Shown here: piece after piece, positions 17,459 through 19,345 of the stretch
How the letters are laid out: each line of letters begins with the position of its first letter
Numbering within the stretch: position 1 is the stretch's first letter
Notes under the pieces: generated by a model
What the model was told of the DNA's origin: nothing
The model's input: the letters and a program-made list of their open reading frames with translations, nothing else
Databases searched by the model: none
Position numbers and translations under genes: made by a program
Assembly (NCBI RefSeq): GCF_009371975.2
Contig: NZ_VIKT02000012.1
Location: forward strand, 1 to 64,000
DNA from: Microcella pacifica
GTDB taxonomy: Bacteria; Actinomycetota; Actinomycetes; Actinomycetales; Microbacteriaceae
Direction of reading: 5' to 3'
DNA length: 64,000 bases

Positions 17459-18373
17459 TCAGAAGAGGGCGGTGCCGAGGAGCCGGTCGAGGATGCTCCG
17501 CCCGAGCATCCTCTCGGCCGCATGGCCGCGCCGCTCACCGCGCACGAGCAGCTCGAGCCCGCGCACGGCCGCGACGGCGCCGAGCACGAGCTCGTCCCGT
17601 TCGCTCGGCACGCGCCCGTAACCGTGCAGGAAGGCCGCGCGCAGGGCGGGCGCGTCGCGCCACGCTCCGTACTCGAGCCACAGCAGGTCGGCCGACCACG
17701 GTTCGAACTCGAAGGCGGCGAAGTCGACGAAGCGCACGCGGCCGCCCGGGTCGACGACCCAGTGGCGGGGATGCAGCTGACGGTGCGCGGGCACGTGGTC
17801 GAGCGCGCCCAGGTCGAGGGCCGCGGCGACGTGCTGCCGGGCGGCGTGACGCTCCTCGGCGCCCCGCTCGCCCCACAGGTCGTCGGCGAGGGTGCTCCAG
17901 CGTTCGAAGTCGGCGGCGATGATCGGGCCGAAGCGGTCGTGGCGCACGGGTGGGGCGGAGTCGTGCAGGCGGCGCAGCAGCTCGCCGGCGCGAGCGTGCA
18001 CGGCCTCGTCGTGCTCGAGCTCCGTGCCTGCGGCCTGCTCGCCGAGCACGTGCGAGACGACCACGAGGCGCAGGGCCGGGTCGCTCAGCACGAGGCGCGG
18101 CGCGTCGCCGCTCAGCGCGGGAGTGTGGTGGTGCAGGGCGGTGTCTTCGCGGCGGTGCGGCAGAGCATCCCGATGCCATTTGACGACCGCGCGCTCCTCG
18201 CCGCGCGTGACGACCTGCAGAACGCGCGAGACCTTGTGAGCGCCGTCGTGCTCGGCGACGACGTCGACGGGGCCGAGGGTGCGATGCACGCGATCGAGCA
18301 CTTCGGCGTCGGAGGCGAGGCGCGTCGAGGAGCGCCCCAGTTCGGGCGTCAGGGCATCGACGGTGATGCTCAC
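17459..18373 (-). CDS. APH-fold phosphotransferase-like protein with altered catalytic loop
   Basis: The product (304 residues) has the fold of aminoglycoside/choline kinases: the N-lobe Lys is in RAVVKWHRDALPH, a LVVVSHVLG hinge follows, then the Brenner-type loop, and a metal-binding Asp in VRFVDFAAFEFEPWSADLLW. The catalytic loop reads HRQLHPRHWVVD where active members have HxDxxxxN. The Asp is replaced by Gln and the Asn by a bulky residue, so classical kinase activity is doubtful. The GTG start is 6 nt behind AGGAGG. The gene lies directly downstream of the terminator of the 27-residue peptide gene. A resistance role should not be assumed. Confidence 0.7.
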   Translation of the reverse strand: MSITVDALTPELGRSSTRLASDAEVLDRVHRTLGPVDVVAEHDGAHKVSRVLQVVTRGEERAVVKWHRDALPHRREDTALHHHTPALSGDAPRLVLSDPALRLVVVSHVLGEQAAGTELEHDEAVHARAGELLRRLHDSAPPVRHDRFGPIIAADFERWSTLADDLWGERGAEERHAARQHVAAALDLGALDHVPAHRQLHPRHWVVDPGGRVRFVDFAAFEFEPWSADLLWLEYGAWRDAPALRAAFLHGYGRVPSERDELVLGAVAAVRGLELLVRGERRGHAAERMLGRSILDRLLGTALF

Positions 18374-18428
18374 GACCGGCCTCCTGTACTCGACGGTGCG
18401 CTACGCGCGGTCTCCTGATAGCACGAAA

Positions 18429-18455
18429 CCCCGGTCACCTCGTGGTGGACCGGGG
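18429..18455 (-). terminator. Terminator of the 27-residue peptide gene
   Basis: CCCCGGTC (18429-18436) pairs with GACCGGGG (18448-18455), with extra inner ACC/GGT pairing, and a TTTCGTGC tail follows on the minus strand. It sits 39 nt after the peptide stop and separates it from the APH-fold gene. Confidence 0.75.
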
Positions 18456-18493
18456 CCTCGGCAGAACCGTGTATCAGCTCGTGGGTGCGATGC

Positions 18494-18577
18494 CTACTGG
18501 CAGCTGTCGCACTGCAGCATGTCCATGGGGTCGACGGGAACGTCGTAGCCGCCCACGGTGTCGTTGTCGTTGTCCAT
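18494..18577 (-). CDS. 27-residue peptide with GG motif and C-terminal CxxC
   Basis: The ORF encodes MDNDNDTVGGYDV followed by PVDPMDMLQCDSCQ. The first ten residues are acidic and end in Gly-Gly. The last 17 contain two prolines and the Cys23-Asp-Ser-Cys26-Gln end. Translation is strongly supported by AGAGGAGGT 5 nt before the ATG. A promoter with a perfect palindromic operator lies upstream and a terminator downstream, so this is a compact, dedicated transcription unit. The layout (leader, GG, short Cys-containing core) resembles ribosomally made modified peptides, and type V lanthipeptide and thioamitide clusters use APH-fold proteins like the neighbour. A metal- or thiol-sensing peptide is equally possible. 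I do not recognise the family. Confidence 0.65.
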   Translation of the reverse strand: MDNDNDTVGGYDVPVDPMDMLQCDSCQ

Positions 18578-18628
18578 TGCGGACCTCCTCTTGGTATGAA
18601 TTCTCCGCCCCCGGCGGCTAGGGCTCTC

Positions 18629-18662
18629 ACTATATACAGGGAATGACACGGTTGTCATTCCC
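18629..18662 (-). promoter_or_regulatory. Promoter with perfect 10-bp palindromic operator for the peptide gene
   Basis: GGGAATGACA (18639-18648) and TGTCATTCCC (18653-18662) are exact reverse complements separated by CGGT. On the minus strand ATGACA inside the distal arm can act as -35, with TATAGT (18634-18629) as -10 at an 18-nt spacing, so the dyad fills the -35 and spacer. A dimeric repressor or activator binding here would control the 27-residue peptide gene 52 nt downstream. The divergent plus-strand gene begins 105 nt away and could share the site. Confidence 0.65.
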
Positions 18663-18766
18663 CTAGATGTTGTGGTCTCGGCGTGTCGCGACAAGATGCT
18701 CGCACAGCGCCGCAGACAGCCCAGCGCCGTACTCTGAGAGCACCGCTCTCCTCACGCAAGGACACC

Positions 18767-19345
18767 ATGCCGTCGCCCGATGCCTCCCGCCCGTCCCCTC
18801 GGGGTGCGGGGCGACCGCACCTGCCGGCGAGCCCCATCGAGGAGGGCGTGCTCGTCGCCCGCTCCGCGCTGCGGCTGTCCATCAAGAACAGCATCATCAT
18901 GCTGACGCTGCGCGACGAGAAACCGTGGAACGACGACGACATGATCGAGCTCGCGCGGCGCGAGATCGAGACGCTCATGGCCGAGCTCACGCAGACCGCC
19001 GAGCGGCTCGAGGAGAGCAGCGCCGCGCCACGCCGCACGTTCGGGCGCTCCCGCCGCGCCGCCGCCAATGCGCGGCAGGACGCCGAGCATCAGCGCACCC
19101 GCGCCCGCATCCTGCGCGGCGTCGTCGACCGGCTGCGCGAGATCGAGGAAGATCCCGCCCAGACGCACGCCCTGCTCGCGGTCGCGCGCGAGGAGACCCT
19201 CGCCGAGCTCACCCAGGCGCGGCTCATCCCCCTCGGCGCCGAGCAGAGCGAGGAGGAGCGGCGCGCGAGCATGGACGCCGTCAAGGAGGACCTGCGCGAG
19301 CAGCTCGCCCTGCAGCAGCTCAAGGATCTGCCCGAGGGGTACTGA
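18767..19345 (+). CDS. Conserved hypothetical coiled-coil protein
   Basis: The 192-residue product from the ATG at 18767 is charged and helical. An N-terminal disordered, Pro/Ser-rich segment (about 1-25) is followed by long amphipathic helices (RREIETLMAELTQTAERLEE; HQRTRARILRGVVDRLREIE; AREETLAELTQARLI). There is no signal peptide, membrane span or catalytic motif. A TACTCT box and GCAAGGACACC precede the start. The in-frame ATG at 18683 would extend it through the promoter region. The function is unknown; a structural or scaffolding role is all the sequence suggests. Confidence 0.65.
   Translation: MPSPDASRPSPRGAGRPHLPASPIEEGVLVARSALRLSIKNSIIMLTLRDEKPWNDDDMIELARREIETLMAELTQTAERLEESSAAPRRTFGRSRRAAANARQDAEHQRTRARILRGVVDRLREIEEDPAQTHALLAVAREETLAELTQARLIPLGAEQSEEERRASMDAVKEDLREQLALQQLKDLPEGY

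Follow-up and report, generated by a model that had tools for sequence, protein, structure and literature searches.

A gene of 27 codons that carries its own promoter, Shine-Dalgarno sequence and palindrome raises the question of what so small a product could serve for. Such a gene lies in the first 64,000 nucleotides of contig NZ_VIKT02000012.1 of Microcella pacifica (hereafter the window), and its product, MDNDNDTVGGYDVPVDPMDMLQCDSCQ, had been predicted from the sequence to be a modified-peptide precursor or a thiol/metal-responsive micropeptide.

A conserved 27-residue peptide with its own transcription unit

The ORF, the Shine-Dalgarno sequence, the promoter and the palindrome of the original prediction were all found again in the sequence (Table 1). 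The AGGAGGT element ends 5 nt before the ATG, and the product terminates in CDSCQ, with the CxxC motif one residue short of the C-terminus. Absence of the peptide from related species, named beforehand as the outcome that would speak against it, did not occur: 25 of the 26 genomes of the genus gave a full-length match with 85-100% identity, and the 26th, the 75%-complete G020, a partial match only. Within the genus, 16 distinct sequences gave a pN/pS ratio of 0.21; in named records, 61 distinct ORFs of 27 codons gave 0.20. Residues G9, G10, Y11, P14, D16-D19, L21-C23 and S25-Q27 were invariant in these 61 ORFs, all of which possess both cysteines of the CxxC motif. The Gly-Gly, previously read as the end of an acidic N-terminus, belongs to a GGY motif that all 61 share. 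The conservation of the window peptide is more than chance, and the earlier view of it as a thiol-bearing micropeptide that is conserved, regulated and transcribed as a unit of its own was right.

An Rfam scan of the window returned four tRNAs and no match at the peptide locus. Searches of NCBIfam and PHROGs with three peptides each gave no match up to E 10. The sole Pfam match of the 27-residue peptide, zf-C2H2_ZNF462 (E 0.3), fell below its cut-off and was rejected.

Table 1. Positions in the window of the peptide gene and its predicted signals.
Feature	Position	Strand	Basis
27-codon ORF plus stop (ATG at 18577, stop at 18496-18494), candidate free-standing RNR redox-tail peptide	18494..18577	-	sequence, genus matches, pN/pS
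Shine-Dalgarno AGGAGG	18584..18589	-	sequence
Predicted promoter ATGACA-18-TATAGT	18629..18658	-	sigma-70-like prediction; AATGACA kept in 68/68 aligned relatives
Palindrome GGGAATGACA-N4-TGTCATTCCC	18639..18662	.	sequence, genome search, relatives
Predicted double NrdR-like operator with 16-bp boxes at about 18660-18675 and 18627-18642, spacer 17 bp	18628..18674	-	pattern also before nrdA
Strong hairpin, probable terminator with short T-run	18421..18462	-	folding

The predicted promoter is the sole sigma-70-like site listed within 2.5 kb, where 0.1 would be expected. The 20-nt palindrome core occurs as one exact copy in the M. pacifica genome, and the next best place carries two mismatches. 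The perfect symmetry stressed originally holds in the window but is often lost among relatives: in 61 distinct promoters the left arm was exact in 56, while the right arm read TGTCATTC in 39, TGTGATTC in 15 and otherwise in 7. All 68 aligned relatives keep AATGACA and, in the right arm, TGT. Moreover, TATATAGT was present within 260 nt upstream in 68 of 80 named loci versus none of 3275 control windows (tail region left out); 11 of the 12 remaining named loci show by eye the same layout with C or G for the first T, L243 being the exception. These data show that the palindrome core belongs to the conserved elements of the promoter. The promoter region (18639-18674) shows near symmetry across more than 40 bp and lies opposite a divergent gene at 18767 (+). 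Since each arm of the palindrome resembles a -35 element, a bidirectional promoter is possible.

The gene had also been credited with its own terminator (18429-18455). A very stable hairpin indeed exists there (-32.4 kcal/mol, z -5.4), whereas it is absent from the program's terminator list and its T-run is short. The flanking genes, 17459-18373 (-) and 18767-19345 (+), had no accepted Pfam match. The proposed link to an APH-fold neighbour is not general: the gene so called gave no Pfam match at E<=1, and the two tested flanking genes adjoin the peptide in 16 of the 80 named loci, within the fetched flank.

A homologous sequence ends NrdA in other families

In most class I NrdA proteins, a C-terminal CxxC pair receives electrons from thioredoxin or glutaredoxin and passes them to the active-site disulfide, which is thereby reduced again (excerpts of PMC3483043 and PMC5704485). 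A profile built from 12 free tails established the homology of the window peptide to such NrdA-fused tails. Among the 248 genomes of an order survey it matched 19, namely the genome of M. pacifica, G187 and 17 genomes of other families. Each of these 17 matches (E 7e-9 to 5e-3) ends a long NrdA-type frame with a YYL motif. The window peptide has in common with the fused tails the CxxC-Gln end and its DPMxxLQCxSCQ context; it differs from the class I NrdA/R1 tail in that separate peptides of about 22-37 residues are encoded here, in several copies per genome and one of them with its own promoter. The linker that precedes one fused tail (L330, ...ARRGFGGLQPHVDVIDGEECPVDPMERLQCESCQ) resembles the stretch where NrdA ends here. 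We treat the fused tail as the presumed ancestral state.

A one-genome-per-species scan retrieved 339 relatives from 342 stretches, and the named records among the best 80 of the 339 belong to Microbacteriaceae or to actinobacterial bins.

The genome of M. pacifica (estimated completeness 99.99) contains exactly one PF02867 match, which is nrdA. The encoded protein, of 829 aa, possesses the ATP-cone and both large-chain domains of Pfam and ends with ...KRGFGFGGAGKSAES, without a CxxC tail. Aligned with Pseudomonas aeruginosa NrdA (5im3), it has the active-site cysteines and Tyr pair at matching positions. A second tail ORF of 37 codons is located between nrdA and nrdB (L036), and its ATG overlaps the nrdA stop codon (TGATG). 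The third copy (L035) lies near a phage-type gene whose match to a terminase model (PF03237, E 3.7e-5) is weak but accepted. The NrdB of the same genome (L036 3836-4873 -) reads EEANHCMSFEY; its Phe stands, presumably, at the position of the radical Tyr in E. coli NrdB (by motif and numbering), which suggests a class Ic-like radical site.

NrdA and its tail are encoded separately across Microbacteriaceae

We read 58 nrdA loci (30 + 28), which represent 40 of the 41 genera where NrdA was matched; the nrdA of G070 (L226), cut by a contig end, lay outside this set. The nrdA ORF ends without an in-frame tail in 57 loci, the remaining one, L040 (G034), being unreadable; there the nrdA frame continues past the tail ORF, perhaps through an assembly indel. 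A separate tail ORF was found beside nrdA in 55 of the 58 loci, in frame +2 relative to nrdA in 47, in frame 0 in five and in frame +1 in three, and this variation disfavours one programmed frameshift.

No linked tail was seen in L199 (G063) and L211 (G101), in which nrdB starts 96 and 59 nt, respectively, after the nrdA stop. The tails of G063, and those of G101 and its congeners G170, G223 and G270 (genus g75), were found elsewhere than beside nrdA. In G063, a single contig of 0.93 Mb, the tail is situated about 33 kb from nrdA, behind ACACTATATATAGT. The C2 tail of G170 has the same coordinates as on plasmid NZ_CP032625.1. Since only distant tails were found in g75 and G063, a distant tail must serve there if NrdA works.

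The survey was extended to 299 genomes of the family, with thresholds of E<=0.05 for the tail (profile of 12 peptides) and E<=1e-60 for NrdA. The tail was matched in 137 genomes (43 of 85 genera) and NrdA in 130 (41 of 85 genera). Both occurred together in 130 genomes, NrdA without a tail in none, a tail without NrdA in seven, and neither in 162. Two of the seven, G180 (E 0.02) and G187 (E 5e-4), are complete genomes in which the match is weak, and the other five are 77-94% complete (G160, G218, G295, G335 and G337). All 25 tested genomes without split-type NrdA encode another PF02867 protein, with a frame of 715-855 aa, that appears NrdE-like by length. Conversely, 34 of 40 one-per-genus genomes with split-type NrdA have exactly one PF02867 match; among the six with more than one, G070, G087 and G102 involve contig-end pieces, and a further RNR seems to be present in G112, G117 and G122. 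Two or more tail matches were obtained in 119 of the 137 tail-bearing genomes, so that the window copy by itself may be dispensable; a special role for it is possible.

An NrdR-like operator pattern precedes the peptide gene and nrdA

The palindrome of the window lies within a double NrdR-like operator that is common to nrdA. The two boxes are separated by 17 bp before the window gene and by 16 bp before nrdA, and the second box is a good half-site only. According to excerpts of PMC12051234, NrdR binds boxes with spacers of 14-17 bp, and excerpts of PMC9110341 place the boxes about three helical turns apart.

The pattern CACWASATNTNGG-N20-28-TATATAGTG gave 43 matches in 25 of the 26 genomes of the genus, while the reversed pattern used as control gave none in the same genomes. 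Twenty-five of the matches stand before window-type tails and 18 have the form of the nrdA promoter. Five of these 18 (G000, G001, G003, G008 and G010) have nrdA directly behind, twelve have a tail match about 2.7 kb downstream, and in the last, G004, the tail is on another contig. The double-box layout was also found at the chromosomal tails of G101, G170, G223 and G270. The M. pacifica genome encodes NrdR itself, in a gene whose product combines the NrdR zinc ribbon with an ATP-cone.

The pattern common to nrdA makes the window gene a putative NrdR target. The arrangement recalls the NrdR regulon, in which RNR genes are preceded by a pair of palindromic boxes spaced by about three helical turns (excerpts of PMC9110341 and PMC12051234), with the difference that in Microcella such an operator precedes a stand-alone tail peptide and that a further palindrome is located between the boxes.

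Probable supply of the redox tail as a separate peptide

Judged from these sequence comparisons, the 27-residue peptide is very probably the redox tail of class I RNR in detached form, diffusible and acting in trans. The tail would be supplied as separate peptides by the mini-gene between nrdA and nrdB, by the window gene and by the copy near phage genes. Through its conserved GGYxVPxDPMDxL stretch, the peptide would dock on NrdA and bring its two cysteines into the active site; it would then depart, be reduced by a redoxin and return. Separate supply could set the dose of tail apart from that of NrdA, and the stand-alone gene would raise this dose once NrdR lets go. RNR is essential, and its large chain is usually considered to include the tail as a flexible segment. 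The arrangement proposed here would be a minimal split enzyme with an added layer of dNTP control, and with the tail as a separate peptide the electron-relay step would become testable with short synthetic peptides, in terms of affinity, exchange, dose and redoxin choice.

Yeast Sml1 inhibits RNR, and for the stand-alone copy an inhibition of this type is the strongest competing explanation: as a tail mimic, the window peptide might be a competitive inhibitor or regulator of RNR, with catalysis left to the nrdA-linked peptide. Its own promoter would suit such a function, as would its occurrence beside a nrdA-linked copy in most tail-bearing genomes (at least two matches in the 119 mentioned above). 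We nevertheless consider it improbable. Both cysteines are invariant in the 61 distinct ORFs, which argues against a pure decoy that would not need them; furthermore, the tails found in g75 and G063 are distant copies only, and the operator pattern is common to nrdA.

It is considerably less probable still that the peptide is joined to NrdA post-translationally by ligation or splicing. This would restore the usual enzyme, and NrdA does end with a conserved RxGFGFGG-type stretch, but a plain reading of the loci showed neither an intein-like nor a ligase gene next to nrdA, and the distant and phage copies have variable N-termini that begin with Met. Programmed frameshifting or readthrough that yields full-length NrdA, the stand-alone copies being dispensable duplicates, is hardly credible: many linked ORFs overlap nrdA at TGATG and five of the 55 are in frame 0 after the stop, yet across the family the tail ORF occupies all three frames, at varied distances and with its own start, and two lineages are devoid of any linked tail. 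The modified-peptide precursor or thiol/metal-responsive micropeptide, drawn originally from the acidic start, Gly-Gly, CxxC and strong expression signals, is scarcely tenable, because the Cys-x-x-Cys-Gln end is that of the NrdA redox tail, fused to NrdA in 17 of 17 matches outside the family and, within it, encoded next to nrdA by an ORF of its own in 55 of 58 loci, and neither of the two tested neighbour genes is conserved with the stand-alone copy across the 80 named loci.

For the preferred reading, a detached tail, partial precedents exist. Electrons can pass between subunits of class II RNR (excerpts of PMC5704485), and in P. aeruginosa a separate NrdJb performs the inter-subunit electron transfer and is required in vivo (excerpts of PMC4520616). 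As in NrdJa/NrdJb, where dithiol exchange falls to a chain of its own that is required in vivo alongside the catalytic one, the part for dithiol exchange would be separate here. However, NrdJb corresponds to a folded Cys-rich domain of 150-220 residues with six cysteines (excerpts of PMC5704485), as against 27 residues and two cysteines for the window peptide, which by this measure is no counterpart of that domain. Moreover, the present system belongs to class I, consists of a short tail peptide only, and includes extra unlinked copies and copies on mobile elements. Phage Aeh1 NrdA likewise consists of two cooperating chains; that case, however, is one phage gene broken by the inserted gene of the homing endonuclease mobE (excerpts of PMC2988022), whereas here there is no insert, the redox tail alone is freed, and the split extends across a bacterial family. 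A literature search that covered few subscription journals found no free-standing class I RNR tail peptide, and PMC9669993, in its available part, discusses split class II chains and contains no split class I tail. Split RNRs are thus already known from NrdJa/NrdJb and Aeh1 NrdA; what would be new is the class I tail alone as a free peptide, in multiple copies and on mobile elements.

Phages and plasmids carry the tail without the operator

Viral contigs, when scanned, yielded 322 relatives, and 80 of these loci were examined. Seventy-five of them have neither nrdA nor nrdB in the fetched stretch and five have nrdB without nrdA, many of the stretches being short contigs. The five contigs with both nrdB and a tail peptide, L084 (6001-7130 +), L087, L131, L146 and L152, contain no PF02867 protein in their records; in L084 the tail ORF directly precedes an nrdB of 326 codons. 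The RNR large chain (PF02867) was absent from all 28 phage records, of which 25 are virus contigs, many of them fragmentary, and three are records of whole phages. Five named-phage records carry the tail peptide. The isolated phages among the carriers are the Clavibacter phages CN1A and CMP1 and the Pontimonas phage phiPsal1, and their records have no annotated feature under the tail match. Plasmid tails were present in 19 records, from Clavibacter (15), Leifsonia (3) and Gryllotalpicola (1). One Leifsonia plasmid tail (L348 2983-3084 +) is annotated as ribonucleotide-diphosphate reductase subunit beta (WP_223361114.1). TATATAGT was found upstream of the tail in none of the 86 phage and plasmid loci examined.

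Phages and plasmids may in this way add tails that escape an NrdR-like operator, and may gain dNTPs. We lean, cautiously, towards a wider reading: in about half of the sampled genera of the family (41 of 85), the RNR large chain would have given up its tail to a freely diffusing, exchangeable peptide subunit, dosed from stand-alone promoters of NrdR type and supplied in trans by phages and plasmids without the operator, so that infecting elements could raise or steer the synthesis of DNA precursors by the host with a gene of about 80 bases. Such a gene would be a very small metabolic gene of phages and plasmids, missed or misnamed by annotation pipelines.

The annotated CDS Pan2_27 of Pseudanabaena phage Pan2, a phage attributed to a cyanobacterium, was considered as the peptide and rejected; a tail-like ORF, MDDFDTIDGFACPNDPADLVSCESCQ (L365 2489-2566 +; ON968453.1 21246-21323), overlaps it in another frame.
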